From the NCBI RefSeq assembly GCF_009674665.1, contig NZ_WKJD01000019.1, forward strand, positions 62,001-126,000: DNA of 64,000 nt, read 5' to 3'. Every line of letters begins with the position of its first letter. Position 1 is the first letter of the stretch. The notes beneath the pieces were generated by a model. It ran no database searches, was not told where the DNA came from, and saw only the letters and a program-made list of their open reading frames with translations. Shown here piece by piece: positions 117 to 62,909 of the stretch. Made by a program: the position numbers and the translations under genes. Source of the stretch: Agromyces kandeliae (GTDB lineage Bacteria; Actinomycetota; Actinomycetes; Actinomycetales; Microbacteriaceae).

Positions 117-1685
117 GTGCGAGAGGTCGACCCGACGAGGCGAGAGTCGGGACCGTCGTCACGAGAGATCTCCCGCAGGGTCGCGATGCTCGTCTCGGGC
201 GCGAGCACCTTCGGTGCGCTGATCGTCTTCCTCTACTTCTCGCTGATCGACCCGATACCGGTCGACGACGAGGCGGTGCGGTCGATCGAGACCGAGGGCA
301 TCGTGACCTTCGCGGTCGTCGGAGCGGTGATCCTCGTCGGTGCGCTCGCGATGGTCATCTGGCTGGGGCGACCGATCCGGAAGTGGCTGGCCCTGATCGA
401 GGACGGCACGCCCGCCTCGGAGATGCCGCCGAGGGTCGCTCGCCTGGTCGTGGTGTGGCCGCTCGTCGGAGCCTCGCTCGTCGCCGTCAGCAGTCTCCTC
501 GTGGCCGTGTTCCTCGCGATCCTGTACGACGATCCGGGCAATTTCGTCGGCATCGCCATCGGCGGCGCCGTCGGGACGACCATCGTCTACTTCGGCACCG
601 ACCTGATCTGGCGGCAACAGGTTCCGACCTTCTTCCCCGATGGGCACCTGAGCAGCATCCCGGCCTTCCGGCTCCTGGTGCGGAGACGCCTGCTCCTGGC
701 CTTCATCCTCATCGGCGGGCTCACGCCGACGCTGCTCGTGGTCCTGTCGCAGGTACGCACGCGAGCCGTGCTCGACGCCGAGAATCCCCAGGCGATCCTC
801 GACAACCTCGTCGTCGTGCAGCTGTTCATCCTCGGGGTCGGGTTGGCCGCGGGCCTCATCACGGCGGTCCTCGTCGCGCGCGCCATCGTGGGGCCGCTGC
901 AGGCCCTGGAGGTGGCGATGGGTCGCGTGGAGGGCGGCGAGCTCGACACGACGGTCGTGGTGGCCACCAACGACGAGCTCGGCTACCTCGGCGAGCGATT
1001 CAACGTCATGACGGACGGGTTGCGCCAGGGGGAACGACTCAGGGAGCTGTTCGGCCTCTACGTCAGCGCCGAGGTCGCCCAGGCCGCCGTGGAAACCGGG
1101 GCCGGGCTCGGTGGAACGCTCGTCGACTGCTCGGTGGTCTTCTCGGACATCCGTGACTTCACGACGCTCAGCGAGCGGATGCCGCCCGCGCGACTGGTCG
1201 AGGTGATCAACCGGTACATGACCGCCATGGTGTCGGTCGTCGTCGATCACGGGGGCGTGGTCACGCGCTTCGGAGGGGATTCGATCCTGGCGGTCTTCGG
1301 AACGCCGCTGAACCCCATGGGCGATCATGCCGACCGAGCAGTGAGAGCGGCGTTCGGGATGCGTCGGGCGCTGGCGGCCTTCAACCGGGAGGCGACCATC
1401 GACCGCCTCCCGAACCTCGAGGCCGGGATCGGCATCGCGAGCGGGCCGGTCATCGCCGGCAACATCGGCGGCAAGGAGCGGATCGAGTACACGGTGATGG
1501 GGGATGCCGTCAACCTCGCCGCGCGATTGGAGGACCGGACCAAGGATGCCGGCGCCCCCATCCTCATGAGCGCCGAGACCTACCGGGCGATCGACGGACA
1601 CCAGGACCTGCCCGCCAGGGCGCTGACGGACCTGCAGATCAAGGGGAAGCGAGACCCGGTCACCGCCTACGCCATCTCCGATTGA
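117..1685 (+). CDS. Membrane-anchored HAMP/adenylate-guanylate cyclase (class III)
   Basis: 522 aa with a GTG start 5 bases after the upstream stop. About six hydrophobic segments fill residues 30-255 (near 30-47, 61-83, 110-137, 141-160, 191-211 and 231-256). A HAMP linker (about 250-305) and a class III nucleotide cyclase domain (about 333-522) follow. This six-TM + HAMP + cyclase plan is that of the mycobacterial Rv1318c/Rv3645 group. The two metal-binding aspartates are visible as D344 (FSDIRDFTTLSERM) and D388 (GGDSILAVFG), and the transition-state Asn/Arg lie in GDAVNLAAR (462-470). At the substrate-selecting position where most relatives have Lys, this protein has Arg (R384 in VTRFGGD). 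It should make a cyclic nucleotide, probably cAMP, on the cytoplasmic side of the membrane; the input signal is unknown. An internal ATG at codon 24 is an alternative start. Confidence 0.88.
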   Translation: MREVDPTRRESGPSSREISRRVAMLVSGASTFGALIVFLYFSLIDPIPVDDEAVRSIETEGIVTFAVVGAVILVGALAMVIWLGRPIRKWLALIEDGTPASEMPPRVARLVVVWPLVGASLVAVSSLLVAVFLAILYDDPGNFVGIAIGGAVGTTIVYFGTDLIWRQQVPTFFPDGHLSSIPAFRLLVRRRLLLAFILIGGLTPTLLVVLSQVRTRAVLDAENPQAILDNLVVVQLFILGVGLAAGLITAVLVARAIVGPLQALEVAMGRVEGGELDTTVVVATNDELGYLGERFNVMTDGLRQGERLRELFGLYVSAEVAQAAVETGAGLGGTLVDCSVVFSDIRDFTTLSERMPPARLVEVINRYMTAMVSVVVDHGGVVTRFGGDSILAVFGTPLNPMGDHADRAVRAAFGMRRALAAFNREATIDRLPNLEAGIGIASGPVIAGNIGGKERIEYTVMGDAVNLAARLEDRTKDAGAPILMSAETYRAIDGHQDLPARALTDLQIKGKRDPVTAYAISD

Positions 1686-1695
1686 CCCGGCGCGG

Positions 1696-1730
1696 AGCGG
1701 GACCGACGCGCCTCCGGCGTCGTTCCCGCT
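1696..1730. terminator. Bidirectional terminator hairpin between cyclase and ABC-F genes
   Basis: Arms at 1696-1709 and 1717-1730 (14 bases, one mismatch) enclose a 7-base loop. It lies between two convergent stop codons and overlaps the stop of the ABC-F gene. There is no U tract, as is usual in high-GC actinobacteria. Confidence 0.6.
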
Positions 1731-3327: not shown

Positions 3328-3428
3328 GGTGACCTCCGGGGCCGGGAGCGGGTTGGGTTGGCGTGCCGAGCGGCACAGCCCTCCAGTCTAGCCTCGGGCG
3401 AGGGATGCCGCGTGTCGGCGGTGCGCGG

Positions 3429-3440: not shown

Positions 3441-4559
3441 ATGCCGACCGCTTCCTCCCAGCTCGCGCGCGCCGTGCGCCTGCACTCGCACGGGTTCCGC
3501 ACACCGGCCGACGACGCCGCGAGCGTCGTCGACCGGCTGGGGGCGATCCAGGCGCAGGACCTGGGCGCCGCGAAGTGGGTCATCGGGTCGCGGATGACGC
3601 GGCCGACGCCCGGCGCGATCAACGCGGCGATCGCCGAATGCCGGGTCGTGCGCTCCTGGCCGATGCGCGGAACGCTGCACATCCTGCCGGCGCGGATGCT
3701 CCGACCCACGCTGCGGCTCACGTCACCACGCGTGCTCGCGAACGCGCGGCGGCGGCACGAGGCGCTCGAGCTCGGCGAGGCAGAGTACCGAACGGCGCGC
3801 GACGCGGTCGAGCGTGCGCTCGCCGGGGGCGCCACGGCGACCCGCGACGAGCTCTCCGCGCTGTGGAGCGCGGCGGGCATCGTGGCGAACGGGCCGCGCA
3901 CCTACCACCTGATCTGGTGGCTGGCGCTCGACGGCGTGCTGTGCGGCGGACCGGTCGACGGCCGCGTCCAGCACTTCGCGCTGCTCGACGACTGGGCACC
4001 GCCCGCTGCCGACGAGCCCGACTCCCCCGAGCAGACGCTCGCCGAGCTCTTCAGCTCCTACGTCCGCGGGCACGGCCCCGTGACGCTCGCCGATTTCGCC
4101 TGGTGGAGCGGGCTGACGATGCGCGACACGCGGACCGCGCTCGACGGAGCGGGCGAGCACGTCGAGCGGTTCGTCGATCGTCCCGCCGACGACGGGCCCG
4201 ACCGGTACGTCGAGGCCGGTGCGACGGATGCCGCGGCATCCCGCCCGAGCGGCGCGCTCGCCCTCGCGGGCTTCGACGAGTACTACCTCGGCTACGCCGA
4301 CCGCTCCGCCGTGTGCGATCCGCGGTTCGGCGACCTCGTGATCCCCGGCGGCAACGGGGTGTTCCAGCCGACCCTCGTGCTCGACGGGCGCGTCGTCGGC
4401 ACGTGGAAGCGCTCGGGCACCGCCGCCAAGCCGCGCGTGGAGCTGCGCTGGTTCGAGTCGAGGTCCGCCGACGCCGCGGCGCGGTTCGAGCGGCCGATCC
4501 GCGCGTGGGCGAGGTTCCAGGGGCTCGACCTGCACGGGATCGACTCGACGACGCCCTGA
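3441..4559 (+). CDS. Winged-helix DNA-binding domain protein (HTH_42/YcaQ-like)
   Basis: 372 aa. It matches the winged-helix family typified by an LGAIQAQ (residues about 33-39) then S-R motif near the N terminus and a PMRGTLHILPA segment (about 75-85). Both are hallmarks of the HTH_42 family, related to the DNA crosslink-repair glycosylases YcaQ/AlkZ. AlkZ relatives use a catalytic Q-x-Q motif, and the QAQ here fits that. The frame is open upstream to 3363, but ATG 3441 was chosen because a CAGACT -10 element sits exactly 6 bases before it and the family usually starts here. It stands alone, with the neighbours on both sides transcribed towards or away from it. Possible role: base excision of crosslinked or alkylated DNA, or DNA binding only. 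Confidence 0.8.
   Translation: MPTASSQLARAVRLHSHGFRTPADDAASVVDRLGAIQAQDLGAAKWVIGSRMTRPTPGAINAAIAECRVVRSWPMRGTLHILPARMLRPTLRLTSPRVLANARRRHEALELGEAEYRTARDAVERALAGGATATRDELSALWSAAGIVANGPRTYHLIWWLALDGVLCGGPVDGRVQHFALLDDWAPPAADEPDSPEQTLAELFSSYVRGHGPVTLADFAWWSGLTMRDTRTALDGAGEHVERFVDRPADDGPDRYVEAGATDAAASRPSGALALAGFDEYYLGYADRSAVCDPRFGDLVIPGGNGVFQPTLVLDGRVVGTWKRSGTAAKPRVELRWFESRSADAAARFERPIRAWARFQGLDLHGIDSTTP
4226..4241. repeat. Perfect 16-base copy of the genome-iterated palindrome GGATGCCGCGGCATCC
   Basis: Lies in frame inside the winged-helix gene, where it encodes D-A-A-A-S using GAT and GCA codons. Those codons are otherwise uncommon here. The identical 16-mer recurs at 9156-9171. Confidence 0.8.
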
Positions 4560-5304: not shown

Positions 5305-6489
5305 CTATTCCCCGGATCCCGTAACGAGTTCGCGCCGGAGCTCCATGACGCGGATCGCGGCCTCCTCGAGGCGCTCCGGCGGGATCCGCCCATCGGCCAC
5401 CGCACCGGCGATCGACGCGGCGAGCCCGTCGACGCTGATCCCGAACTCGGACGGGTCGGACGGGAGCACGTAGAGGAGCAGGTCGCTGCCGGCGGCGACG
5501 GCGCGGATGGCGTTCTCCCCCGGGTTCGCGTACTCCGGGAGCCCGTTGTGCTGGAGCATCAGCATGTCGTCGGTGACGAGCACGCCCTCGAACCCGAGTT
5601 CGTCCCGCAGGATCCGGTGCCACTCCGGGGAGAGCGACGCCGGCGCGGCGTCGACCGCCGGGTAGCTGAGGTGACCCGTCATCACGAGTTCGACGTCGGC
5701 ATCGATCGCCGCCTCGAACGGCACGGCCGGGCCCGCCTGCCACTGGTCGAGCGTGAGCGGCGCCGACGGCACCGACACGTGCGAGTCGCCGGGCGCCGCA
5801 CCGTGCCCCGGGAAGTGCTTGACCGTGCTCGCGACCGTGCCGCGCTCGCCCTCGACGGCCGCGGCGACGTGCTCGGCCGACGCCTGCGGGGAGGTCCCGA
5901 GGATGCGGTCGTAGATGAACGAGGCCGGGTCGTCCGTGACATCCGCCACGATGCCGAAGTTGACGTTCACGCCGGATGCCTCGAGCGCGGCCGCGCGCGC
6001 GGCGAACGCGTCGCGCGTCGCCGCCGCGGGCTGGTCGCGGAGCTCGTACGGACCGGGCGCGGGATCCCATGCGATGCGGCTCACGATGCCGCCCTCCTGG
6101 TCGATGCCGATCAGGGTCGCCGCATCCGGATCGGCCTGGAGGGCGGCCGTCAGTGCGGCGAGCTCGCCCTCGGAGCCCGGCATGTTGTCGCCCATCAGGA
6201 TGACGCCGGCGATGCCCTGCTCGACGAGGGCGCTCATCGCGGCCGGATCCGTTCCGGGCGCGTGCAGCATGAGCAGTGATGCCGCGCGCTCCTGATCGGA
6301 CATCGCGGCCACGCGCTCGGTCGCCCACTCGGACGGAGTGGGCGGCGTCGGGGTCGGCGTGGGTGACGGGGACGGCGCCGCAGCGCTCGTCGTGGGCGCC
6401 GTCGGCGCGCCGGGGGTCGCGCAGCCCGCGAGGACCGCCGCGCCGAGGACGATCGCGGCGACCGACAGCGAACCCGCATTCCGACGCAC
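5305..6489 (-). CDS. Lipoprotein beta-N-acetylhexosaminidase-type glycoside hydrolase family 3 (NagZ-like)
   Basis: 394 aa. An N-terminal signal with lipobox ending at C23 (V-L-A-G-C) is followed by a Pro/Thr/Ser-rich spacer to about residue 53, so the enzyme is tethered to the outside of the membrane. The GH3 domain shows GIDQEGGIVSRI (about 128-139), the NagZ His/Asp dyad motif KHFPGHG (214-220), and VTDDML (295-300), which carries the nucleophile Asp. Only the single TIM-barrel domain is present, as in NagZ. Expected role: removing terminal N-acetylglucosamine from cell-wall muropeptides or glycans. GTG start at 6489 preceded by TAGACT and exactly 6 bases, indicating a leaderless transcript. 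Confidence 0.88.
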   Translation of the reverse strand: MRRNAGSLSVAAIVLGAAVLAGCATPGAPTAPTTSAAAPSPSPTPTPTPPTPSEWATERVAAMSDQERAASLLMLHAPGTDPAAMSALVEQGIAGVILMGDNMPGSEGELAALTAALQADPDAATLIGIDQEGGIVSRIAWDPAPGPYELRDQPAAATRDAFAARAAALEASGVNVNFGIVADVTDDPASFIYDRILGTSPQASAEHVAAAVEGERGTVASTVKHFPGHGAAPGDSHVSVPSAPLTLDQWQAGPAVPFEAAIDADVELVMTGHLSYPAVDAAPASLSPEWHRILRDELGFEGVLVTDDMLMLQHNGLPEYANPGENAIRAVAAGSDLLLYVLPSDPSEFGISVDGLAASIAGAVADGRIPPERLEEAAIRVMELRRELVTGSGE

Positions 6490-7993: not shown

Positions 7994-9130
7994 ATGAGCC
8001 TCAACGTCGAGCATCACGAGCCACGCGTCCTCCCCTCCGAGAAGCCGATCCGACTCCTCGACAACGCGGGGCATGCACTGCGCGGTCGTGAGACCGGCGG
8101 GTTCGAACTGCCGCCAGTCGAGCGCCTGCTCGACCTCTACCGGCGCATGGTCGTCGCGCGCCGCTTCGACGTGCAGGTGACCGCGCTCACCAAGCAGGGC
8201 CGGCTCGCGACGTACCCCTCCGCGTACGGCCAGGAGGCCTGCGAGATCGGCGTCGTCTCGGCGATCACCGCCGACGACTGGCTCTTCCCGACGTACCGCG
8301 ACAGCATCGCGCTGCTCACCCGGGGCCTCGAGCCCGGTGAGATCCTCCAGTCCTTCCGCGGCGACTGGCACAACGGCTGGGACCAGCACGAGCACCGCAC
8401 CGCCGCCATGGCCACGCCGCTCGCCACGCAGGCCCTGCACGCCGTCGGGCTCGCGCACGCCGCGAGGCTCCGCAGCGACCCGATCGTGACGCTCGCCTAC
8501 CTCGGCGACGGCGCCACCAGCGAGGGCGACGCGCACGAGGCGTTCAACTTCGCCGCCGTGTGGCAGACGCCGACCGTCTTCCTCGTGCAGAACAACCAGT
8601 TCGCGATCAGCACGCCGATCGCCCGCCAGACGCATGCGACGACCCTCGCCGACAAGGCGGTGGGCTACGGGATGCCGGGCTACCACGTCGACGGCAACGA
8701 CGTCGCGGCCATGTTCGCCGTGGCGACCGCCGCGGTCGACCGGGCGCGTTCCGGCGGCGGGCCCACGCTGATCGAGGGCCTCACGTACCGCATCGAATCG
8801 CACACGAACTCCGACGACCCCACGCGCTACCGCGCCGCCCGCGACGTGGAGCACTGGAAGCGGCGCGACCCGATCGAGCGACTCGAGAAGTACCTCGTGT
8901 CCGAGGGCGCACTCACCGACGACGTCCGCACCGCGATCGCCGAGGCCGGCGAGGCGCTCGCCGCGCGCACGCGCGACGCGATGAGCGTGTCGCCCGAGCT
9001 CGACCCGCTCGAGCTGTTCGACCACGTCTACGCGACCCCGCGCACGGCGCTCGCCGAGCAACGCGCCGCGCTCGAGGCGGAGCTCGCCGCCCACTCGGAG
9101 CACGCACGCGAGGAGGTGGCCGCCCGATGA
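7994..9130 (+). CDS. 2-oxoacid dehydrogenase E1 component, alpha subunit (probably branched-chain)
   Basis: 378 aa. The thiamine-diphosphate fold begins with GDG (171-173, within GDGATSEGDAHEAFNF) and closes with NN (200-201), the Mg-ThDP binding motif of E1alpha. Regulatory-loop and substrate regions fit the BCKDH/PDH alpha family, and S-H-T-N-S-D-D-P-T-R-Y is the usual branched-chain-type loop. With E1beta and E2 it would decarboxylate branched-chain 2-oxoacids (or pyruvate) and reductively acylate lipoate. ATG 7994 has no Shine-Dalgarno; a CAGACT -10 candidate lies at 7972-7977. An ATG at 7986 begins a 3-codon frame whose TGA overlaps this start. E1beta follows with a 4-base overlap (9127-9130). 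Confidence 0.92.
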   Translation: MSLNVEHHEPRVLPSEKPIRLLDNAGHALRGRETGGFELPPVERLLDLYRRMVVARRFDVQVTALTKQGRLATYPSAYGQEACEIGVVSAITADDWLFPTYRDSIALLTRGLEPGEILQSFRGDWHNGWDQHEHRTAAMATPLATQALHAVGLAHAARLRSDPIVTLAYLGDGATSEGDAHEAFNFAAVWQTPTVFLVQNNQFAISTPIARQTHATTLADKAVGYGMPGYHVDGNDVAAMFAVATAAVDRARSGGGPTLIEGLTYRIESHTNSDDPTRYRAARDVEHWKRRDPIERLEKYLVSEGALTDDVRTAIAEAGEALAARTRDAMSVSPELDPLELFDHVYATPRTALAEQRAALEAELAAHSEHAREEVAAR

Positions 9131-10155
9131 GCACACCCGTCACCGAACCCGCGACGGATGCCGCGGCATCCGCCCCCCAGCCCCTGACCATGGCGGGCGC
9201 GCTGAACGCCGCCCTGCGCGACGCGATGGCCGAGGACGACCGCGTGGTCGTCTACGGCGAGGACGTCGGACCGCTCGGCGGCGTCTTCCGGGTCACCGAC
9301 GGACTCCAGGCCGCGTTCGGCGAGGACCGCGTGTGGGACTCCCCGCTCGCCGAGTCGGGCATCGTCGGCACGGCCGTCGGCATGGCGATGTACGGACTCC
9401 GCCCGGTCGTCGAGATGCAGTTCGACGCGTTCAGCTACCCGGCCTTCGAGCAGATCGTCTCGCACGTCGCGAAGATGCGGAACCGCACCAAGGGCCGCGT
9501 GAGCCTGCCGATGGTCATACGCATCCCGTGCGCCGGCGCGATCGGCGGCGTCGAGCACCACTCCGACTCCTCCGAGGCGTACTGGGCGGCGACGCCGGGC
9601 CTCACGGTGGTCATGCCGTCGAATCCGGCCGACGCGTACTCGATGCTGCGCGAGGCCATCGACAGCGACGACCCCGTCGTCTTCATGGAGCCGAAGAGCC
9701 GCTACTGGTCGAAGGCCGAGCTGGCGCTCCCCGTGCGCACCGCGCCCATGAACCGGGCCGAGGTCGTCCGCGAGGGCACCGACGTCACCCTGATCGGGTA
9801 CGGGCCGACGGTGCGCACGGCGCTGGATGCCGCGGCCGCCGCCGAGTCGGAGGGGCTCTCGATCGAGGTGGTCGACCTCCGCAGCCTCTCGCCGTTCGAC
9901 GACGAGACGGTCGGCGCGTCGCTCCGCAAGACGTCGCGCGCGGCCGTCATCCACGAGGCCGCCCAGTTCGGCGGATACGGCGCCGAGGTCGCCGCACGGC
10001 TGACCGAGCGGAACTTCTTCCACCTCGCCGCCCCGATCCTCCGGATCACCGGCTACGACATCCCCTACCCGTCGCCGAAGCTCGAGGAACACTACCTGCC
10101 GACGCCCGACCGCGTGCTCGAAGCGCTGGCCTCGTGGGAATGGGACCTCGCATGA
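9127..10155 (+). CDS. 2-oxoacid dehydrogenase E1 component, beta subunit
   Basis: 342 aa, starting at ATG 9127 inside the E1alpha stop (ATGA). The transketolase pyrimidine-binding domain occupies about residues 20-195 (V-V-Y-G-E-D-V-G near 37-44, and the Y-P-A-F-E-Q segment). A C-terminal transketolase domain follows (V-T-L-I-G-Y-G, about 219-225, then S-P-F-D-D-E-T). It forms the alpha2beta2 E1 with the preceding subunit. The N-terminal 20 residues are Ala/Pro-rich and carry a perfect copy of the GGATGCC palindrome. The stop overlaps the E2 start by 4 bases, so all three subunits are translationally coupled. Confidence 0.93.
   Translation: MSTPVTEPATDAAASAPQPLTMAGALNAALRDAMAEDDRVVVYGEDVGPLGGVFRVTDGLQAAFGEDRVWDSPLAESGIVGTAVGMAMYGLRPVVEMQFDAFSYPAFEQIVSHVAKMRNRTKGRVSLPMVIRIPCAGAIGGVEHHSDSSEAYWAATPGLTVVMPSNPADAYSMLREAIDSDDPVVFMEPKSRYWSKAELALPVRTAPMNRAEVVREGTDVTLIGYGPTVRTALDAAAAAESEGLSIEVVDLRSLSPFDDETVGASLRKTSRAAVIHEAAQFGGYGAEVAARLTERNFFHLAAPILRITGYDIPYPSPKLEEHYLPTPDRVLEALASWEWDLA
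9156..9171. repeat. Second perfect 16-base copy of palindrome GGATGCCGCGGCATCC
   Basis: In frame near the E1beta N terminus, encoding D-A-A-A-S with GAT and GCA, exactly as at 4226-4241. The two host genes are unrelated. Confidence 0.8.
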
Positions 10156-11711
10156 GCGCCCGCGAGTTCATCCTGCCCGACCTCGGCGAGGGCCTGACCG
10201 AGGCCGAGGTCGTCGCGTGGCTCGTCGCCCCGGGCGACGAGGTGACCGTCGACCAGCCCGTCGTCGAGCTCGAGTCGGCCAAGTCGGTCGTGCAGCTGCC
10301 GACGCCGTTCGCGGGCGTCGTCGAGTCGCTCGGCGGCGAGGTCGGCCAGGTGCTGCACGCCGGCGAGGTGCTCATGCGGCTCGCGCCGGTGGGGGCCGAC
10401 GTCCGGGCCGAGGCGACGACGGATGCCGCGGGGCCCGCGGCAGCTGCGGAGAGCACGCCCGCGACGGCCGAGTCCGCGACGACGGGCGCCGGCCCGGTCG
10501 CGGCGGAGCCCGGGATCGCGGTGCCCACCGAGGCCGCGTCCGAGGAGTCCGGGGCCGTCCTCATCGGCTACGGCACGCGGGCCAGCGCGGCCACCGCACG
10601 ATCGGCGTCCGCGCCGTCGCGGTTCGGTCGTCGTCGCGACGCCGACCATGCATCTGAGGTGCCGCTGCCCGCTGGCGCACCCGCCGAGCACGCCCCGGAC
10701 GGTGCCGGCGCGACCTCCGCGACGGCGCCGGCCGGCACGCAGGACGACGTCGACGAGGCCGCGCTCGCCGAAGCGCACGCCGCACACACGCTCGAGCACG
10801 GCCGCCACTCCCCCGTCATCTCCCCGATCGTCCGCCGGCTCGCCCGCGAGCACGGCTTCGACGCGAGCGAGCTGCTCGGCAGCGGCCCGGACGGCCTCGT
10901 GGTCCGCGCCGACGTCGAGGCGTTCATCGCCGAGCTCGACGAGGCGCGCGCCGGCCGCGGAACACCGACCGCGATGCCGTCCATGCCCGACACCGTCGCG
11001 GCGCCCTCCGCGCCCCGCGCTGGCGAGCAGCGCGTGCCGCTCGACCGCATGCAGCGAGCCGCCGCCGCGCACTTCACGCGCTCTCGGCGCGAGATCCCCG
11101 AGGCGACGGTCTGGATGGACGTCGACGCGACCGAACTCCTCGCCGCACGACGCCAGCTCAACGCGGCGACGGGCGAGCGGTTCGGGATCACCGCGCTCGT
11201 CGCCCGGTTCGCGATCGCCGGGCTCCGGCGGCATCCGTCGCTGAACGCCAGCTTCGACGCCGACCGGAACGAGCTCGTCCTGCACTCCGGGATCAACCTC
11301 GGGCTCGCCGCACAGACCCCGCGGGGCCTGCTCGTGCCCGTCGTGCACGGCGTCGAGCGGATGTCGCTCCGCGACCTGCGCGACGCGATCCAGGCTCGGA
11401 CCGACCAGGCCTCGACGGGTGCCTTCCCGCCCGATGCGCTGACCGGCGGCACCTTCACGCTGAACAACTACGGCACGCTCGGCGTGGACGGCTCCGCGGC
11501 GATCATCAACCACCCCGAGGCCGCGATGCTCGGCATCGGTCGGCTCGTGGAGCGGCCGTGGGTGGTCGACGGCGCGATCGCCGTGCGCACGGTCACGGAG
11601 CTCACGATCTCGTTCGACCATCGCGTGTGCGACGGGGCCGAGGCGGCCGCGTTCCTCACGTTCATCGCCGGCTGCATCGAGCGCCCGATCTCGCTGCTCG
11701 CCGACCTCTGA
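10152..11711 (+). CDS. Dihydrolipoamide acyltransferase, E2 of a 2-oxoacid dehydrogenase complex
   Basis: 519 aa. One lipoyl domain (about 4-78) with the lipoylated lysine at K44 (ESAKS), and a long Ala/Thr/Pro linker containing V-L-I-G-Y-G, a phrase seen in actinobacterial branched-chain E2. Then comes a peripheral-subunit-binding domain (about 221-259) and a chloramphenicol-acetyltransferase-like catalytic domain with HRVCDG (H490, D494). A single lipoyl domain favours the branched-chain enzyme over actinobacterial pyruvate/2-oxoglutarate E2s. No E3 (lipoamide dehydrogenase) gene follows, so E3 must be supplied from elsewhere. The start ATG overlaps the E1beta stop. Confidence 0.92.
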   Translation: MSAREFILPDLGEGLTEAEVVAWLVAPGDEVTVDQPVVELESAKSVVQLPTPFAGVVESLGGEVGQVLHAGEVLMRLAPVGADVRAEATTDAAGPAAAAESTPATAESATTGAGPVAAEPGIAVPTEAASEESGAVLIGYGTRASAATARSASAPSRFGRRRDADHASEVPLPAGAPAEHAPDGAGATSATAPAGTQDDVDEAALAEAHAAHTLEHGRHSPVISPIVRRLAREHGFDASELLGSGPDGLVVRADVEAFIAELDEARAGRGTPTAMPSMPDTVAAPSAPRAGEQRVPLDRMQRAAAAHFTRSRREIPEATVWMDVDATELLAARRQLNAATGERFGITALVARFAIAGLRRHPSLNASFDADRNELVLHSGINLGLAAQTPRGLLVPVVHGVERMSLRDLRDAIQARTDQASTGAFPPDALTGGTFTLNNYGTLGVDGSAAIINHPEAAMLGIGRLVERPWVVDGAIAVRTVTELTISFDHRVCDGAEAAAFLTFIAGCIERPISLLADL

Positions 11712-12646: not shown

Positions 12647-12711
12647 CCGGTTCGCGTGCCTCGGGCGACGGCCGCGGGCATCCGCCGGCACGAGGCCGCC
12701 GCTGAACGACG

Positions 12712-16837: not shown

Positions 16838-16871
16838 GTTCCGCGCCGGGGGCCGGATGCCGCGTGTGACG

Positions 16872-20024: not shown

Positions 20025-20077
20025 ACGGGCGCCGACCGCGTGTCGCAGGGCCCCGAGCGGATGCCGCGGCGGCGGCG

Positions 20078-20372: not shown

Positions 20373-23177
<2,805 letters not shown>

Positions 23178-36597: not shown

Positions 36598-37365
<768 letters not shown>

Positions 37366-49426: not shown

Positions 49427-51027
49427 ATGTCCGGATCTCCGTGAGCGGCCCAGCGGCCGACGCGGTGCGCCGCATCGTGCCGCAGCTGGTGGCCGACCGG
49501 GTGGCGACGGGCATCACCTCGCTCGACGCGAGCCTGTGGGGGCCGGCCGCCGAGGAGGAGGCCGCGAACCGTCTCGGCTGGACCGAGGCGATCGCGGTGT
49601 CCCGGCCGCTCCTGCCCGAGATCGCGGCGCTCCGCGACGAGCTCCGCGCCCGCGGGATCGATCACGTGGTGCTCGCGGGCATGGGAGGCTCCTCCCTCGC
49701 TCCCGAGGTCATCGCCCGCACGGCAGGCGCCGATCTCACCGTGCTCGATTCGACCGAGCCCGGCCAGGTCCGGTCGGCGATCGCCGACCGACTCCAGCGG
49801 ACGGTGCTCGTCGTCGCGTCGAAGTCCGGATCCACCGTCGAGACCGATTCGCAGCGTCGGGCCTACGAGCAGGCGTTCCTCGACGCCGGCATCGACCCTG
49901 CGACGCGCATCGTCGTCGTCACCGACCCGGGTTCGCCGCTCGAGGGGTCCGCACACGCGGCGGGCTACCGGGTCTTCACGGCGGACCCGACGGTCGGCGG
50001 ACGCTACTCGGCGCTCACGGCCTTCGGCCTCGTGCCGACGGGCCTCGCCGGAGTCGACCTCGGGGAGCTCCTCGACGAGGCGGAGGCGATCGAACTCGCC
50101 CTCGCGATCGATTCAGAGGAGAACCCCGGGCTGGTCCTCGGCGCCGCGATCGCCGGGACCGACCCGCGCAGGGACAAGCTCGCGATCGTCGCCGACGGCA
50201 CCCACATCGTCGGGTTCGCCGACTGGGCCGAGCAGCTCATCGCCGAATCGACGGGCAAGGAGGGCACGGGCATCCTGCCCGTCGTCCTCGGCCCGGGTGC
50301 CCCGGAGCTCGTGTCCCGTCCGTCCGACCTGCAGGTCGTGCGCCTCGTCGACGACGCGGGCACCGAGCGCTTCGCGGAGGGCACCGACGGGGAGATCCGC
50401 GTCTCGGGCACGCTCGGCGCGCAGCTGCTCGCCTGGGAGTACGCGACGGCGGTCGCCGGGCGGCTCCTCGGCATCAACCCGTTCGACCAGCCCGACGTGG
50501 AGTCGGCGAAGGTCGCCGCGCGCGGTCTCCTCGAGGCGCGGCCGGAGCCTGCTCCGGCCGCATTCGTCGCCGGCGCGATCGAGGTCCGCGGCACGCCCGA
50601 CGTGATCGGTGCGGCAAGCGACCCGGCGTCCGCGGTCGAGGTCCTCCTCGAGGAGATCCCGGTCGACGGGTACCTCGCCGTGCAGGCCTACGTCGACCGG
50701 GTGGCGCACCCCGAGTTCGGACGGCTCCGCGACCTGCTCGCCGAGCGCAGCGGCCGCCCGGTCACGTTCGGCTGGGGTCCGAGATTCCTGCACTCCACCG
50801 GCCAGTACCACAAGGGCGGGCCCGCGCACGGGGCGTTCCTGCAGCTCGTGCAGCGCCCGACCGACGACCTCCCGATCCCCGGTCGACCGTTCACGTTCGG
50901 CGACCTCATCGCGGCCCAGGCCTCCGGCGACGCATCCGTCATCGCCGAGCACGGCCGGCCGGTCCTCACCCTGACCCTGCCCGATCCGAGCGCCGACCTG
51001 CGGTCGCTGCGCGCGGCCATCGGCTGA
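49423..51027 (+). CDS. pgi: Glucose-6-phosphate isomerase
   Basis: 534 aa, GTG 49423 overlapping the tal stop (GTGA). SIS-fold isomerase: [12 protein letters not shown] (about 84-95), [11 protein letters not shown] (about 129-139), and [16 protein letters not shown] (about 451-466), the conserved late motif with the active-site His/Lys. It belongs to the shorter actinobacterial/cyanobacterial form that occurs beside tal. It links glycolysis to the pentose phosphate genes around it. Confidence 0.92.
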
Positions 51028-51040: not shown

Positions 51041-52582
51041 ATGCATCCGGTCGAGATCACGGCGACGCACAACCCGTTGCGGTCGCCCAAGGACTACCGC
51101 CTGAACCGGATCGCCGGTCCGTCGAGCCTCATCATCTTCGGCGTCACCGGCGACCTCTCCCGCAAGAAGCTCATGCCCGCGGTCTACGACCTCGCGAATC
51201 GGGGGCTGCTGCCGCCGGGCTTCGCGCTCGTCGGCTTCGCCCGGCGCGACTGGGAGGACCAGGACTTCGCCGCAGTCGTGCACGACTCGGTGAAGAAGTA
51301 CGCCCGCACCGAGTTCCGCGAGGACGTCTGGAAGCAGCTCTCGCGCGGCATCCGCTTCGTCCAGGGCACCTTCGACGACGACGAGGCGTTCGCGCGCCTT
51401 CGACGCACCGTCGAGGGCCTGGACCGCGAGCGGGGCACCATGGGCAACCACGCGTTCTACCTGTCGATCCCGCCGAAGTCCTTCCCGCAGGTCACCGAGC
51501 AGCTCAAGCGCTCCGGCCTGACGGAGCAGAAGGGCGACCAGTGGCGGCGCGTCGTCATCGAGAAGCCGTTCGGATCCGACCTGAAGACGGCGATCGAACT
51601 GAACGACGTCGTCGCGTCGGTCTTCCCGCCCGACTCGGTCTTCCGGATCGATCACTACCTCGGCAAGGAGACGGTCCAGAACATCCTCGCGCTGCGGTTC
51701 GCCAACCAGCTCTACGAGCCCATCTGGAACGCCAACTTCGTCGACCACGTGCAGATCACGATGGCCGAGGACATCGGCGTGGGCGGGCGTGCCGGCTACT
51801 ACGACGGCATCGGCGCCGCACGCGACGTCATCCAGAACCACCTGCTGCAGTTGCTCGCGCTCACCGCGATGGAGGAGCCCATCTCGTTCGACGCGGCGGA
51901 CCTCCGTGCGGAGAAGGAGAAGATCCTCCGTGCGGTGCGCCTTCCGTCGGACCTCGCGACGGCGACTGCGCGCGGACAGTACTCGGGCGGATGGCAGGGC
52001 GGCGAGAAGGTCACCGGATTCCTCGACGAGGACGGGATGAATCCCGAATCGACGACCGAGACCTACGCGGCCATGAAGCTGCTCATCGGGACGCGCCGTT
52101 GGGCCGGCGTCCCCTTCTACCTCAGGGCCGGCAAGCGCCTCGGCCGCCGGGTGACCGAGATCGCGGTCGTCTTCAAGCGCGCGCCCCAGCAGGTGTTCGC
52201 CGACAGCCAGACGTCCCAGCTCGGCCAGAACGCGCTCGTGATCCGGGTGCAGCCCGACGAGGGCGTGACCATCCGGTTCGGCTCCAAGGTGCCCGGCGCG
52301 GGCATGCAGGTCCGCGACGTGACGATGGACTTCGGCTACGGACACGCGTTCACCGAAGCCAGCCCCGAGGCGTACGAACGACTCATCCTCGACGTGCTCC
52401 TCGGCGACCCGCCCCTCTTCCCCAGGCAGGAGGAGGTCGAGCTGTCCTGGAAGATCCTCGACCCGATCGAGGAGTTCTGGGCGTCGCAGGGTCGACCCGA
52501 GCAGTACAAGCCCGGATCGTGGGGCCCGGCCTCGGCCGACGAGCTCCTCGCCCGCGACGGACGCACCTGGAGGCGCCCATGA
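51041..52582 (+). CDS. zwf: Glucose-6-phosphate 1-dehydrogenase
   Basis: 513 aa. Rossmann motif G-V-T-G-D-L-S-R-K-K-L (about 32-42), the active-site R-I-D-H-Y-L-G-K-E (about 201-209), and the E-K-P-F-G (about 174-178). Oxidises glucose-6-phosphate with NADP (or NAD) as the entry to the oxidative pentose phosphate pathway. Its stop overlaps opcA, whose product assembles or activates it in actinobacteria. Confidence 0.97.
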   Translation: MHPVEITATHNPLRSPKDYRLNRIAGPSSLIIFGVTGDLSRKKLMPAVYDLANRGLLPPGFALVGFARRDWEDQDFAAVVHDSVKKYARTEFREDVWKQLSRGIRFVQGTFDDDEAFARLRRTVEGLDRERGTMGNHAFYLSIPPKSFPQVTEQLKRSGLTEQKGDQWRRVVIEKPFGSDLKTAIELNDVVASVFPPDSVFRIDHYLGKETVQNILALRFANQLYEPIWNANFVDHVQITMAEDIGVGGRAGYYDGIGAARDVIQNHLLQLLALTAMEEPISFDAADLRAEKEKILRAVRLPSDLATATARGQYSGGWQGGEKVTGFLDEDGMNPESTTETYAAMKLLIGTRRWAGVPFYLRAGKRLGRRVTEIAVVFKRAPQQVFADSQTSQLGQNALVIRVQPDEGVTIRFGSKVPGAGMQVRDVTMDFGYGHAFTEASPEAYERLILDVLLGDPPLFPRQEEVELSWKILDPIEEFWASQGRPEQYKPGSWGPASADELLARDGRTWRRP

Positions 52583-53544
52583 TCGTCGAACTGCCCGACA
52601 CGACCACGAGCCAGGTCTCGAAGACGCTCGTGAAGATCCGCGAGGAGGGCGGCGTCGTGGCCCTCGGCCGCGTGCTGACCCTCGTCATCGCGACCACGCA
52701 CGACGCCGAGGAGGAGGCGATCGAGGCGGCGAACGACGCGTCCAGGGAACACCCGATGCGCGTCATCGTCGTCTCGACCGTCGACCAGGGCGACCCCGAC
52801 GTCAGCCGGCTCGACGCGGAGATCCGCGTGGGCGGCGACGCGGGGGCGAGCGAGGTCGTCATCCTCAGGGCGAGCGGAGACGCCGCCCAGGACGAGCAGG
52901 GTCTCGTGATGGGGCTCCTCCTCCCCGACGCCCCGGTGGTCACCTGGTGGCCGGGCGCGGCGCCCGAGGTACCCGGCGACTCCCCGCTCGGCAGGATCGC
53001 CCAGCGGCGCATCACGGACGCGTCCATGCAGTCCGACCCGCAGGCCGCGCTCGACGCGCTCGCCGCGAGCTACCGGCCCGGCGATGCCGACTTCGCGTGG
53101 ACTCGGCTCACGCTGTGGCGGGCGCAGCTCGCGGCCGTGCTCGACCAGCCACCGTACGAATCGGTGACCACGGTGCAGGTGACCGGGTCGATCGATTCCC
53201 CGTCGACGACGCTGCTCGCCGCCTGGTTGTCCATGCAGCTCGGCGCATCGACGAACTGCGCACTGACCGGACTCGAGCACGGCTCGCACGGCATCCGCGG
53301 AGTCTCGCTCGGCCGGGCGACCGGCACGATCGAGCTCGTCCGGGACCTGCCGGGCGTCGCCACGCTGCGTCAGCCCGGCCAGCCGGTGCACGATGTCGCA
53401 CTCCCCCGGCGCAGCCTCCGTGACTGCCTCGCCGACGAGCTGCGCCGCCTCGATCCCGACGAGCTGTACGGTGAGGTGATCACCCGGGGGCTCGGCCTGC
53501 TCCCCGACCACCGCACCCCCGCGAGCGAAGGAGCCACCGCATGA
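52579..53544 (+). CDS. opcA: Glucose-6-phosphate dehydrogenase assembly protein OpcA
   Basis: 321 aa, starting MIVELPDTTTSQVSKTLVKI, the OpcA N terminus, with V-V-T-W-W-P-G (about 115-121) and D-A-S-M-Q-S-D-P (about 147-154) in the conserved core. OpcA acts as allosteric/assembly partner of Zwf. ATGA overlaps with zwf upstream and pgl downstream. Confidence 0.94.
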   Translation: MIVELPDTTTSQVSKTLVKIREEGGVVALGRVLTLVIATTHDAEEEAIEAANDASREHPMRVIVVSTVDQGDPDVSRLDAEIRVGGDAGASEVVILRASGDAAQDEQGLVMGLLLPDAPVVTWWPGAAPEVPGDSPLGRIAQRRITDASMQSDPQAALDALAASYRPGDADFAWTRLTLWRAQLAAVLDQPPYESVTTVQVTGSIDSPSTTLLAAWLSMQLGASTNCALTGLEHGSHGIRGVSLGRATGTIELVRDLPGVATLRQPGQPVHDVALPRRSLRDCLADELRRLDPDELYGEVITRGLGLLPDHRTPASEGATA

Positions 53545-54311
53545 CGAACGAGCGGCGCGTACTCGTCCATCCCGACAAGGACACCCTCGCCGGGGCGGTC
53601 GCCGCTCGCTTCATCACCAAGGTCCTCGACCTGCTCGATGCGCAGGAGACGGTCCACGTGGTGCTCACCGGAGGTTCCATGGGCGCCGCCGTGCTCGAGG
53701 CCGTCCGCGCGTCCCCAGCGCACAAGTCCATCGACTGGCAGCGCATCCACTTCTGGTGGGGCGACGAGCGATGGGTCCCCGCGGGCGACGACGAGCGCAA
53801 CGACCGGCAGTCGCGCGAGGCGCTCCTGGACGCACTGCACCTGCCCGACGACCACGTCCACCCGTTCCCGGCGTCGGATTCCGGGCTCTCGCTCGACGAG
53901 GCGGCCGACGCCTATGCGTCGGAGCTCGCCGCGCACGGGGCCGACGGCCTCCCGCATCCGGTGTTCGACATCGTGTTCCTCGGAGTGGGACCCGACGGCC
54001 ACATCGCCTCGCTGTTCCCGCACCGGTCGGGAATCCAGGTCGTGGATCGGCCCGTGATCGCCGTCCGCGACTCGCCGAAGCCGCCGCCCGAGCGTCTGAG
54101 CCTGACCCGACCGGTCATCAACGCGGCGCAACGTGTCTGGCTGGTTCTGGCCGGCGCCGACAAGGCGTCGGCGCTCGGTCTCGCGCTCGCCGGAGCGAGC
54201 CGCGACGAAGTGCCCGTCGCGGGGATCAAGGGTCGGCGACGCACCGTCTTCTTCGTCGATCGGGATGCCGCGGCCGAGGTCCCCGACGCGCTCATCGCCC
54301 GCGACTACTGA
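53541..54311 (+). CDS. pgl: 6-Phosphogluconolactonase
   Basis: 256 aa. V-L-T-G-G-S-M-G (about 39-46, usual T-G-G-S), H-F-W-W-G-D-E-R-W-V-P (about 71-81), and G-V-G-P-D-G-H-I-A-S-L-F-P (about 149-161), the 6PGL/NagB-type active site with D and H. Last gene of the operon, followed by a very strong hairpin. No gnd gene follows. Confidence 0.96.
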   Translation: MTNERRVLVHPDKDTLAGAVAARFITKVLDLLDAQETVHVVLTGGSMGAAVLEAVRASPAHKSIDWQRIHFWWGDERWVPAGDDERNDRQSREALLDALHLPDDHVHPFPASDSGLSLDEAADAYASELAAHGADGLPHPVFDIVFLGVGPDGHIASLFPHRSGIQVVDRPVIAVRDSPKPPPERLSLTRPVINAAQRVWLVLAGADKASALGLALAGASRDEVPVAGIKGRRRTVFFVDRDAAAEVPDALIARDY

Positions 54312-55079: not shown

Positions 55080-55080
55080 G

Positions 55081-55941: not shown

Positions 55942-57146
<1,205 letters not shown>

Positions 57147-57157: not shown

Positions 57158-58884
<1,727 letters not shown>

Positions 58885-59011: not shown

Positions 59012-59992
59012 TCAGACGTCGTCGAGGTCGGCCGGCAGGTTCGCCTCGGTGCCCGGCACGCCGAGTTCGACGGCGCGCTTGTCGGCCATCGCCAGCAGTC
59101 GACGGATGCGTCCTGCGACCGCGTCCTTCGTCAGCGGCGGGTCGGCGTGGTGGCCGAGCTCGTCGAGGCTCGCGTCGCGATGGGCCAGGCGCAGGTCGCC
59201 GGCGTACTTCAGGTGGTCGGGGATCTCGTCGCCGAGGATCTCCATCGCCCGCTCGACCCGGGCGCAGGCCGCCACGGCGGCCTGCGCGGAGCGGCGGAGG
59301 TTCGCGTCGTCGAAGTTCACGAGCCGGTTCGCCGTCGCCCGGACCTCGCGTCGCTGACGCAGCTCCTCCCAGTTCCGGACCGTCTCGTCGGCGCCCATGA
59401 GTGCGAGCATCGCACTGATGGCCTCGCCGTCGCGGATCACGACCCGATGCACGCCGCGCACCTCGCGGGCCTTCGCGGAGACGCCGAGCCGCCCGGCGGC
59501 GCCCACGAGCGCCATGGCCGTCTCGCCGCCGGGGCAGGTCACCTCGAGCGCCGCGGACCGACCCGGGTCGGTGAGGCTCCCCCGCGCCAGGAACGCGCCG
59601 CGCCACACTGCCGCCACCTCATCGCGCGAACCGGTGGTCAGCTTGTTGGGCAGCCCGCGCACCGGCCGTCGGCGCGCGTCGAGCAGCCCGGTCTGGCGCG
59701 CGAGCGTCTCACCGCCATCGAGCACGCGCACGAGGTACTGGTTCGTCCGGCGCAGGCCGGATGCGGAGATCACCGAGACGTCGGGCCGGACGCCGTACAG
59801 CTCGCCGAGGTCGCGGGTCACCCTGCGCGCGATCGACGGCGCGTCGAGCTCGGCCTCGATGGCGATCCGGCTCGAGATGATGTGGAGTCCCCCGGCGAAT
59901 CGGAGCACGGATGCCAACTCCGCGGCTCGAACCGAGGTCCGGGTGACCTCGACCTTCGCCAGCTCCTCTTTCACCTCAGCGGTCAGGGCCAC
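59012..59992 (-). CDS. whiA: Sporulation/cell-division regulator WhiA
   Basis: 326 aa. N-terminal degenerate LAGLIDADG homing-endonuclease-like domain ([12 protein letters not shown] at 3-14, with [10 protein letters not shown] near 131-140) and C-terminal helix-turn-helix (about 230-318, R-I-R-R-L-L near the end). In Streptomyces it acts with WhiB at division promoters; the gene is conserved in non-sporulating actinobacteria. Downstream of rapZ with a 43-base gap; the yvcK gene usually between them is missing. Confidence 0.95.
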
Positions 59993-60035: not shown

Positions 60036-60908
60036 TCATTCCCGTCCGAGATCGCGGTGCTTCACGCTCACCGCGAGCCCCGGGATCGATCTCAGTCGCG
60101 CCGCGAGCTCGCGGACCAGCGCGACCGAGCGGTGCTTTCCGCCGGTGCAGCCGAGTGCGATGGTCGCATGGCGCTTGTTCTCCCGCTGGTAGCCCTCGAG
60201 GACGGGGCGCAGCGCAGCGACGTAGGCGTCGAGGAACTCGCGCGCACCGGGCTGGCCGAGCACGAACTCCGCGACCTCGGGGTCCTCGCCGGTGTGGGCG
60301 CGAAGCTCGGGCTCCCAGAACGGGTTCGGCAGGAATCGCGCATCGGCGACGAGGTCCGCGTCGGGGGGCAGGCCGTACTTGAACCCGAAGCTCTGGACGA
60401 TCACGCGCAGGCCCGCGCGGTCCTCCTCGGCGAAGGTCTCGGTGACGAGGGTCGCGAGCTGGTGGATGTTGAGGTCGGAGCTGTCGACGATGATGTCGCT
60501 CGATTCGCGCACCTCGGCGAGCCGTGCACGCTCGGCCGTGATGCCGTCGAGCAGCGTGCCGTCACCCTGCAGCGGGTGCGGCCGGCGCACGGACTCGAAA
60601 CGGCGCACGAGCACCGCGTCGTTCGCGTCGAGGAAGACCACGCGGACGTCCACCTTGTCGCGGAGCGACTCGACCATCTCCTGCAGTTCCGAGAAGAACG
60701 TGCCGCCACGGATGTCGACGACCGCGGCGATCCGCGGCAGCGACGCGCCCGCCCGCTGCGCGAGCTCGACGAGGGGGCGGAGCATCTGGGGCGGGAGGTT
60801 GTCGACGACGTACCAGCCGAGATCCTCGAGTGCGTCGGCGACGGTGGAGCGTCCTGCTCCCGACATCCCCGTGACGATGAGCATCTCCTGGCGATCGCCG
60901 TCGGTCAT
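60036..60908 (-). CDS. rapZ: RapZ/YvcJ-type nucleotide-binding protein
   Basis: 290 aa. P-loop G-M-S-G-A-G-R-S-T (about 14-22, Arg where many have Lys, as is common in actinobacterial members), Walker B-like V-V-F-L-D-A-N-D (about 94-101), and the C-terminal V-S-V-K-H-R-D-L tail. The C-terminal [10 protein letters not shown] (about 254-263) is family-specific. In E. coli RapZ controls GlmS small RNAs; in actinobacteria the role is unclear. It lies between uvrC and whiA. Confidence 0.94.
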
Positions 60909-60950
60909 CTCGCTCGGCGCTCCCTTCCTGCATTCCCCCGGTGGTCCAGC

Positions 60951-62909
60951 CTAGTCCGCGGCGGACCGGTGCGATCCCTCCAGGTGCGAGCGGATGGCCG
61001 ATGCGAGGCTCGGGCCGATGCCCGGGACCTCGGCGATCGCCGACTCGTCGGCCCCGCGGAGTCGCGCGACCGAGCCGAAGTGCTTGAGCAGCGCCTTCAC
61101 GCGGGCGGGACCGAGCCCGGGCACCTCCGACAGGACGGTCGCGATGTCGCGCTTGCGGCGCTGCCGCTGGTGGGTGATCGCGAAGCGGTGCGCCTCGTCG
61201 CGGATGCGCTGGAAGAGGAAGAGGGCGTCGCTGTTCCGGGGCAGGATCACCGGGAAGTCGGAATCCGGGGTCCAGATCTCCTCGAGGCGCTTGGCGATGC
61301 CGCAGAGGTAGACGCCGCCGACCCCGGATTCGCGCAGGGCCCGCTCGGCCGCAGCGACCTGCGGCTGCCCGCCGTCGACGACGAGAAGGTTCGGCCGGTA
61401 CGCGAACTTGGCACGTCGCGGCGACACGACGGCCTCGCCCTCGTCGACCGGCGGTTCCGGCGTTCCCGCGCCATCGTCGCCGACGGGCGCCCGGGTCGCG
61501 GCATCCGCCTCGTTCGCACCGTCGCCTGGAGATGCGAGGTACGCGAGACGACGCGTGAGCACCTGGTGGATCGAGTCGGTGTCGTCGGTGGTGCTCGGGA
61601 TCGTGAAGCGGCGGTACTCGTCCTTCCGCGGCAGTCCGTCCTCGAAGACGACCATCGACGCGACGACATTGGTGCCGCTCAGGTGCGAGACGTCGAAGCA
61701 CTCGATGCGAAGGGGCGCGTCGGCCATGCCGAGCGCCTCCTGGATGTCCTCGAGCGCACGGGAGCGCGCGGTGAAGTCGGCGCTCCGTCGGGTCTTGTAC
61801 AGCACGAGCGTCTGGCGTGCGTTCTGCGTCGCCGTCTCGAGGAGCGCCGCCTTGTCTCCTCGCCGGGCGGCCCGGAGCCGCACCCTGCGGCTCCCGAGCG
61901 CCGCGAGCCAGCCTTCGAGCGCCTCGGCGTCATCGGGCAGCGCCGGGACCACGACCTCGGCCGGCGGACGGATGTCGCCGCCGTAGGCGTTCTGCACCAC
62001 GGAGTCGACGAGATCGCCGAGGCTCATGTCGAGCTCGGTGTCGACGGTCCAGGAACGCACGCCCCGGATCCGGCCGCCTCGGACCATGAAGAGGTGCACG
62101 GCCGCCGCCAGCTCGTCGTGGTCGATGCCGAACACGTCGACGTCGACGTGGTCGCGGAGGACGACCGCGCTCTTCTCGAAGAAGGACTCGGCCGCCTGCA
62201 GCTCGTCGCGCCGCCGCGCCGCGGTCTCGTAGTCCTGCACCGCCGCGGCCGCACGCATCTGCTGCGTGAGGTCGGTGATGATGCGGCGGTCCTGGTTCTG
62301 CATGAACGCCACGAACCGGTCGACGTTCGCGCGGTGCTCGGCGATCGTGACCCGACCCGAGCACGGGCCGAAGCACCGCCCGATCTGACCGGCGAAGCAG
62401 GGCTTGCCGGTCTGCATCGCCCGCTTGTAGTCGGAGTCCTTGCAGGTGCGGATCGGGAAGAGCTTCAGCAGCAGGTCGAGCGTCTCGTTGACCGCCCACA
62501 CCTTCGGGTACGGGCCGAAGTACCTCGCACCGGGGATGCCGCGGCGCCGTGTCACGATCGCCCGGGGCGCCTCGTCGGCGAGCGTCACCGCGAGGTAGGG
62601 GTACGACTTGTCGTCGCGGTACTTGACGTTGAACGGCGGATCGAACTCCTTGATCCACGTGTACTCGAGCTGGAGCGCCTCGATGTCGTTGCCGACCACG
62701 GTCCATTCGACGGACGCCGCGGTCGTGACCATGCGGCGGGTGCGCTCGTGGAGCGTGTGCAGCGGCGCGAAGTAGTTCGACAGCCGCGCGCGGAGGTTCA
62801 TCGCCTTGCCGACGTAGAGCACGCGTCGGTCGGCGTCTCGGAATCGGTAGACGCCCGGATCGGTCGGGATCTCGCCCGGCCGCGGACGGTACGGGACGGT
62901 GTTCGCCAT
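60951..62909 (-). CDS. uvrC: Excinuclease ABC subunit C
   Basis: 652 aa from ATG 62909. GIY-YIG nuclease (about 14-95: P-G-V-Y-R-F-R-D, then V-L-Y-V-G-K-A), the Cys-rich C-F-G-P-C (about 176-180), a UVR domain (about 215-250), the RNase H-like endonuclease domain (about 390-560, C-F-D-V-S-H and V-D-G-G-Q-P-Q), and helix-hairpin-helix pair (about 590-645). Makes both incisions in nucleotide-excision repair. Two bases separate it from the uvrA stop. Confidence 0.96.

Follow-up and report, generated by a model that had tools for sequence, protein, structure and literature searches.

The uptake signal sequence (USS) of the Pasteurellaceae is an enriched word of about 9-12 nt that has two dialects and AT-rich flanks. 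HIP1 of cyanobacteria is a perfect palindrome, a highly iterated, octamer-class word found in genes and on both strands, whose function is unsettled; Chi and the FtsK-orienting polar sequences (KOPS) are short, over-represented chromosomal words that are strand-polar and read by DNA-translocating machines. According to excerpts of PMC12616744, DNA uptake sequences have been reported only for the Neisseriaceae and Pasteurellaceae, both of which belong to the Proteobacteria. Those of the Neisseriaceae (DUS) are described in excerpts of PMC3630211 as asymmetric words of 10-12 bp that are present in thousands of copies, form lineage dialects around a constant core and occur as terminator-associated inverted pairs; switching of the word between lineages is likewise reported there as a trait of uptake sequences. 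Here we describe a repeated word in a stretch of 64,000 nucleotides from Agromyces kandeliae, a member of the Microbacteriaceae, a family of soil bacteria (contig NZ_WKJD01000019.1, positions 62,001 to 126,000), which we refer to as the window. This word takes the form of an asymmetric 11-mer, RCGGATGCCGCG, in which the GGATG core is strict; its shorter forms are the 9-mer GGATGCCGC (complement GCGGCATCC) and the 7-mer GGATGCC (complement GGCATCC).

By analogy, we see an even chance that RCGGATGCCGCG serves for self-recognition, in the manner of a DNA uptake sequence. We make this proposal because there is a close resemblance to the DUS of the Neisseriaceae, whose receptor is ComP, in length, copy number and strand balance, in the inverted pairs behind genes and in the existence of dialects that share a core. 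Unlike DUS, the word belongs to a high-GC Gram-positive family and is unrelated in sequence (GGATG core in the main dialect); moreover, the dialects described here seem to lose a base or to change more (GGATGCCGC, GGATGCGC, GGATCC, GGAGGCGCGG). From USS it differs in the word itself, in phylum and envelope, and in that no AT-rich flanks were seen around the Agromyces word.

Excess of the word, its shape and its conservation

Exact counting yielded 68 copies of GGATGCC/GGCATCC in the window (39 and 29 by strand) and 34 of GGATGCCGC/GCGGCATCC (18 and 16), close to the approximately 66 and 33 counted by eye in an initial annotation of this DNA, whose rough expectations of near 15 and 2 compare with 16.9 and 2.6 from an order-2 Markov model. 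Among the 1,117 9-mers with at least eight copies in the window, this 9-mer ranks first under Markov orders 2, 3 and 4. The enrichment continues in the rest of the genome (3.78 Mb in 22 contigs), where the 9-mer totals 2,075 copies (1,079 + 996) as compared to 91 (51 + 40) for a reversed-word control. Since this control contains TAG and is rare in itself, we put more weight on codon nulls, for which gene positions were taken from our own simple gene finder without any annotation. The genes of the window hold 27 copies of GGATGCCGC, as against 4.2 after synonymous shuffling within genes (maximum 7 in 60) and 6.3 after a shuffle that preserves neighbour bases (maximum 11 in 60); in 342 predicted genes from a 409-kb genome sample, 196 copies stand against 27.9 and 37.0, respectively. 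Codon shuffling, the null that the initial annotation had proposed, therefore does not reproduce the counts. The reversed control words stayed near the codon null, with the biggest deviation seen for the reversed 7-mer (25 vs 17.2). On the basis of Markov orders 2-4 and the two codon shuffles, we rejected an artefact of codon usage or of Markov modelling. Within genes the word is often translated as Asp-Ala; GAT makes up 10.8% of the Asp codons and GCA 5.8% of the Ala codons, and the earlier remark that the word relies on avoided codons therefore holds. The density of the 9-mer is 0.75/kb outside predicted genes and 0.56/kb inside them.

The extent of the motif was determined in 300 kb of G030, the genome of the same genus that is richest in copies. 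In this sample the 11-mer CGGATGCCGCG occurs 168 times vs 3.1 expected, a 55-fold excess, and ACGGATGCCGCG occurs 66 times vs 0.5; information is near background beyond RCGGATGCCGCGG, and the flanks outside the 11-mer hold almost none. In 709 kb from two species, the perfect 11-mer was found 316 times vs 7.4 expected. Any one-base change at positions 2-6 (GGATG) brings the count to or near background (ratios of at most 3.6, with 3.6 representing one copy), changes at positions 8 and 10 leave an excess of 1.2- to 4.4-fold, positions 1, 7 and 11 are partly free (4- to 12-fold) and position 9 is almost free (13- to 23-fold). Because of this pattern, strict at GGATG and graded elsewhere, the 11-mer has the form of a sharp, asymmetric recognition site.

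To compare synonymous sites, the window was aligned to two congeners (47.0 kb at 90.2% identity and 28.9 kb at 87.2%), which are related species and yield small counts. GAT codons within GGATGCC were retained in 9 of 10 cases in the first congener, as opposed to 25 of 72 elsewhere, and in 4 of 5 as opposed to 7 of 31 in the second; for GCA within GGCATCC, the figures are 9 of 9 vs 17 of 82 and 7 of 7 vs 14 of 48. The near-word GGACGCC had become GGATGCC in 3 of 12 and 2 of 6 instances, while other GAC codons showed any change in 33 of 787 and 32 of 454, respectively. In the predicted genes of five Microbacterium phages (100 kb), the 9-mer was counted 12 times vs 7.9 under the codon null (60 shuffles gave at most 13) and the 11-mer twice vs 1.0. 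The baseline for this comparison is provided by the genes of 33 Microbacterium loci, where the 9-mer occurs 55 times vs 9.6 and the 11-mer 21 times vs 1.6; as these loci had been picked for holding an inverted pair, the pair, or the gene containing it, was removed before counting. Host replication by itself does not create the long word. Since the codon nulls, the synonymous-site conservation (in small numbers) and the non-significant 9-mer count in phages all point the same way, selection on the DNA word itself, as suggested in the initial annotation, is strongly supported.

A few other 9-mers are in excess as well, all more weakly than the main word: AGCGCCTCG and AGACGCTCG in the window and CGAGTCCGA in the G030 stretches.

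Distribution in the Microbacteriaceae and genus dialects

Each of 60 genomes of the genus Agromyces has the 9-mer in excess, with 413-3,596 copies on balanced strands and an approximately 4.5- to 35-fold enrichment over the reversed control; this set was assigned to the genus by inference from an Agromyces luteolus locus that is 89% identical over 8.1 kb. In the Microbacteriaceae as a whole (299 genomes from 85 genera), the ratio of the 9-mer to its reversed control ranges from below 1 to about 38, and it is mostly below 3 in 111 genomes from other families of the order. In four genomes (G372, G388, G417 and G430) of one of these families, f4, GGATGCCGC exceeds the control 3.5- to 7-fold at low counts (e.g., 94 vs 13), possibly a faint presence in a neighbour family, which may be an ancestral trace or an effect of composition. 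The inverted pair RCGGATGCCGCGGCATCCGY matches at least 116 stretches in species genomes; of the 80 listed, 77 come from Microbacterium, Agromyces, Cryobacterium, Salinibacterium, Galbitalea or Lacisediminihabitans, six genera of the Microbacteriaceae, and the other three are one each from Cupriavidus, Massilia and a metagenome-assembled Lachnospiraceae genome. The main word is largely confined to this one family.

Genera that lack GGATGCCGC can possess a word of their own: AGGAGGCGCGG in g36, GAGCGGATGCGG in g73, GGATGCGC in g21, CGGATCC in g35 and GCAGGATCC in g48. Counted genome-wide, GGAGGCGCGG occurs 842-1,378 times in all four g36 genomes (reversed control 103-148) and at background in 12 others, and AGCGGATGCG occurs 1,223 and 1,169 times in both g73 genomes (reversed control 69 and 52) and is low in 14 others, the highest of which is a g21 genome (110 vs 43, about 2.6-fold). 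The dialect words tend to exclude one another. In the g35 sample, GGATGCC is found 9 times vs 19.7 expected and CGGATCC 136 times vs 34.5. Within genus g85, the main 9-mer numbers 1,436-1,856 in three of the four other sampled genomes, 646 in the fourth and 138 in G221, in 80 kb of which GGATGCC is near expectation (24 vs 20-21) and CGGATCC reaches 113 vs 35.6 (order 2) or 111 vs 47 (order 3). After removal of g41 and g44, each with less than 15 kb of known bases, from 68 sampled sets, one or more of seven tested words was detected at p<1e-6 in 22 of the remaining 66 (63 genera); in the other genera, words may be weak, different or absent. The g36 and g73 dialect words also form hairpins behind genes: in 60 kb sampled from each, 3 of 6 inverted pairs in g36 and 2 of 2 in g73 lie between genes, at a distance of 2-93 bases beyond the end of a gene.

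Probable tandem or dispersed repeats were kept out of the dialects, namely CCCACG in g17, TCTCGATACG in g46 and G030, and CCCTTCGAC in g22 and g72. The loci L043 (g46) and L084 (g50) as well as G030 carry dispersed GTATCGAGAC/TCTCGATACG and GGTCTCGTGAC, with 6-9 copies per 20-300 kb sample, probably an unrelated repeat family. In both L071 (g22) and L097 (g72), words such as TCCCTTCGAC and GCTCAGGGA have 5-7 copies per 20 kb and probably belong to a single longer repeat.

Orientation of the copies and inverted pairs

The copies span the window, as the initial annotation had it, from a first start at 1177 rather than 1502 to a last end at 62542 rather than 62540. They are listed here with coordinates, strand and description; for 11-mers (CGGATGCCGCG) the coordinates are those of the 9-mer core.

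1177..1185, +, 9-mer GGATGCCGC
1502..1508, +, 7-mer GGATGCC
1544..1550, +, 7-mer
3403..3411, +, 9-mer, intergenic
4226..4241, unstranded, inverted pair, offset 9 (11-mer +, core 4226-4234; 9-mer -, 4233-4241)
5974..5980, +, 7-mer
8670..8676, +, 7-mer
9156..9171, unstranded, inverted pair, offset 9, 18-bp palindrome made by two overlapping 11-mers
9825..9833, +, 9-mer
10421..10429, +, 11-mer
11228..11236, -, 9-mer
12677..12683, -, 7-mer, intergenic
13935..13943, +, 11-mer
15714..15722, -, 9-mer
15947..15953, +, 7-mer
16707..16715, -, 9-mer
16855..16863, +, 11-mer, intergenic
16965..16973, +, 11-mer
17415..17423, +, 11-mer
17473..17479, -, 7-mer
20059..20067, +, 11-mer, intergenic
20199..20205, -, 7-mer
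22737..22773, unstranded, inverted pair in RNase E/G-family gene (7-mer + at 22737; 9-mer -, 22765-22773)
24125..24149, unstranded, intergenic inverted pair, two 11-mers, flanked by convergent predicted genes whose 3' ends are 53 and 22 bases away
27093..27101, -, 11-mer in class I tRNA synthetase gene (inferred to be ileS)
27587..27593, +, 7-mer in the same gene
27685..27691, +, 7-mer in the same gene
28615..28621, +, 7-mer in the same gene
29936..29951, unstranded, intergenic inverted pair, offset 9, two 7-mers, gene 3' end 101 bases away
30464..30470, -, 7-mer, intergenic
31877..31905, unstranded, intergenic inverted pair, two 11-mers, offset 22, 42 bases past gene 3' end
34022..34030, +, 9-mer
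34425..34431, -, 7-mer
34817..34823, -, 7-mer
36317..36325, -, 9-mer
36762..36768, +, 7-mer
37751..37757, +, 7-mer, intergenic
37886..37892, +, 7-mer
38695..38703, -, 11-mer
38888..38894, +, 7-mer
40022..40028, +, 7-mer
40275..40281, +, 7-mer
40800..40806, -, 7-mer
41424..41430, -, 7-mer
41504..41540, unstranded, inverted pair in gene (7-mer + at 41504; 11-mer -, core 41532-41540)
43414..43422, +, 11-mer
44784..44790, +, 7-mer
45572..45580, +, 9-mer
47487..47493, -, 7-mer
47861..47867, -, 7-mer
50269..50275, -, 7-mer
51345..51353, -, 11-mer
53290..53296, -, 7-mer
54263..54271, +, 9-mer
56109..56115, +, 7-mer in phosphoglycerate kinase gene
56371..56379, -, 11-mer in phosphoglycerate kinase gene
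56845..56853, -, 9-mer in phosphoglycerate kinase gene
57343..57349, +, 7-mer
59909..59915, +, 7-mer
61498..61506, -, 11-mer in uvrC gene
62534..62542, +, 9-mer in uvrC gene

Most copies are single and lie within genes. Across the 2.85-Mb contig of G030, 15 stretches reveal no strand bias (chi-square 7.9, 15 degrees of freedom); an evenness like that observed was obtained in none of 5,000 simulations at a polarity of 75:25 and in 0.4% at 60:40. Close pairs are in excess, with 33 of 435 gaps measuring 40 bases or less, and among neighbours less than 40 bases apart in samples of two genomes, 52 are inverted and 10 have the same strand. Thirteen close pairs have an offset of 9, several of which form the palindrome GCGGATGCCGCGGCATCCGC. 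Among gaps of 10-400 bases between predicted genes, inverted pairs are present in 5 of the 65 convergent and 14 of the 252 tandem ones but in none (0) of the 82 divergent ones (Fisher p 0.018). Sixteen of 20 intergenic inverted pairs are at most 60 bases away from the 3' end of a gene, and in tandem gaps 10 of 14 pairs are closer to one gene's 3' end than to the other's 5' end. Single sites have a density of 1.38/kb in divergent gaps vs 2.69/kb in the others (p 0.005).

As to individual loci, L017, a stretch of low word density considered as a possible mobile island, has predicted proteins that resemble, by eye, a sugar-utilisation region; L018 consists of N only. G056, a genome of the same genus listed as 99% complete, gave no match to a full IleS or UvrC ortholog.

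A possible uptake sequence and its rivals

We infer a binding protein, a bias in uptake, a drive through recombination and terminator activity, which might act together as follows. A surface or membrane protein of natural transformation, most plausibly pilin-like or of the ComEA type and acting ahead of ComEC, would bind double-stranded DNA that carries the word, which would be taken up preferentially. Fragments imported in this way would recombine by homology, and alleles bearing the word would be imported more often than those losing it, so that copies would accumulate and persist on both strands, within genes as well as between them. Inverted pairs would be tolerated and could double as transcription terminators behind genes, and shifts of the word in individual genera, the dialects, would bias exchange toward relatives. 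The wider proposal, that the Microbacteriaceae have a DNA uptake sequence system of their own, the first in Actinobacteria or in any Gram-positive and independent of those of the Neisseriaceae and Pasteurellaceae, whose dialects, five or more in number, centre on a GGA(T) core and form a barrier that channels exchange within dialect groups, falls in our judgement slightly short of an even chance. If true, it would add a large Gram-positive family as the third independent case and would mean that self-tagging of DNA evolves repeatedly; the origin and dialect change of such words would become testable in many genera, and one would predict hidden natural competence and, for Agromyces and Microbacterium, a tag of practical use in transformation.

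The main rival, to which we assign a rather low probability, is a HIP1-like site recognised by an internal protein that binds, methylates or repairs DNA, and kept for use inside the cell, e.g., in nucleoid organisation, repair or self-marking against defence systems. Like HIP1, the word is highly iterated on both strands and mostly in genes. Also in favour of this rival are the conservation at synonymous sites, the lack of significant enrichment of the 9-mer in phages and the palindrome GGATCC within the CGGATCC dialect, as in many methyltransferase sites. Against it stand the asymmetry of the main 11-mer with its strict GGATG half, where HIP1 is palindromic, and the location of pairs past gene ends in three dialects, a position not predicted for an internal site. 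Other words replace the main one in other genera, and such switching is, according to excerpts of PMC3630211, a trait of uptake sequences. Even with an internal reader protein, a word that is spread through the family in as many as thousands of copies, with dialects by genus, would be, as far as our searches of open-licence papers show, an undescribed chromosome feature.

A mobile repeat or terminator family of the repetitive extragenic palindrome (REP) or miniature inverted-repeat transposable element (MITE) kind, spreading as hairpins and leaving single copies as debris, would account for the palindromic 20-bp units and intergenic hairpins; it is improbable, as most copies are single and in genes, there is no shared flank or unit beyond the word, and some copies were gained through single substitutions between related species. 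High copy number, short length and presence in core genes are also what a polar recombination or segregation signal, Chi-like or FtsK-orienting, would show. This is very improbable: because strand polarity is missing and simulated polarity is rarely as even, we rejected the Chi/KOPS candidate, and the analogies of the initial annotation to Chi and to polar chromosome-organising motifs are contradicted; of its other two, HIP1 differs in being palindromic, and DNA uptake is the best fit by length, copy number, dialects and inverted pairs. Most improbable is a functionless bias in codons, amino acids or mutation, or context-specific repair. The frequent Asp-Ala reading and the raised GGATGCC count in phages would suit it; two codon-preserving nulls fail to explain the counts, the density outside predicted genes is at least that inside, the excess extends to 11 bp at 55-fold, the 9-mer and 11-mer are not significantly above the phage codon null, and some sister genera prefer other words, with the main word at or below expectation there.

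Several observations weigh against an uptake word. Apart from pairs, the spacing from word to word is random (coefficient of variation 0.99 vs 0.99 simulated), on which ground an architectural element with even spacing was also rejected. Four of the 14 pairs in tandem gaps are closer to the start of the next gene than to the end of the preceding one, and 34 inverted pairs lie wholly within genes. No inverted pairs were found in the g21 sample and only palindromic ones inside genes in that of g48, and 44 of the 66 sampled sets, most of only 20 kb, had none of the seven tested words at p<1e-6. Among 7-mers with five G/C and at least 20 copies, the conservation of GGATGCC ranks 8th of 248 and 3rd of 105 in the two congeners, which is high but not unique. 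GGATGCC exceeds the codon null in the phages too (61 vs 40.5, with 49 the maximum of 60 shuffles), a smaller rise than in the Microbacterium loci (223 vs 78.8). ComEC is also present in genera without a detected word; only 9 of 17 ComEA-like matches are over the curated cut-off, that of A. kandeliae itself falls below it (44.4 vs 53.1 bits), and the same search also matches in genomes such as that of E. coli. TadE was not found in the single g36 genome tested, despite the strong g36 dialect, and our searches of open-licence papers gave no report of natural transformation or uptake specificity in the Microbacteriaceae.

With regard to the machinery that an uptake word would require, ComEC is encoded in 293 of the 299 family genomes and, being nearly universal, does not track the word and is uninformative as its correlate. 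A ComEA-like match at E<=0.001 was obtained in 17 of 17 genomes, DprA in 10 of 10 and TadE in 9 of 10 tested. Since such components are common in bacteria, their presence is weak evidence. Two DprA-like matches, not one, were seen in G271 and in G106. Micrococcus luteus is a member of a family other than the Microbacteriaceae. This actinobacterium is, according to excerpts of PMC6370729, naturally transformable with Flp pili and possesses comEA and comEC homologs. In agreement with the initial annotation, which knew of no description, we found none of the word, nor of uptake sequences in the Microbacteriaceae, in aimed searches of the open-licence literature. The 9-mers do appear there, mostly in unrelated contexts; in the excerpts of PMC12089995, which concerns a member of the Microbacteriaceae, the context is a detection probe.

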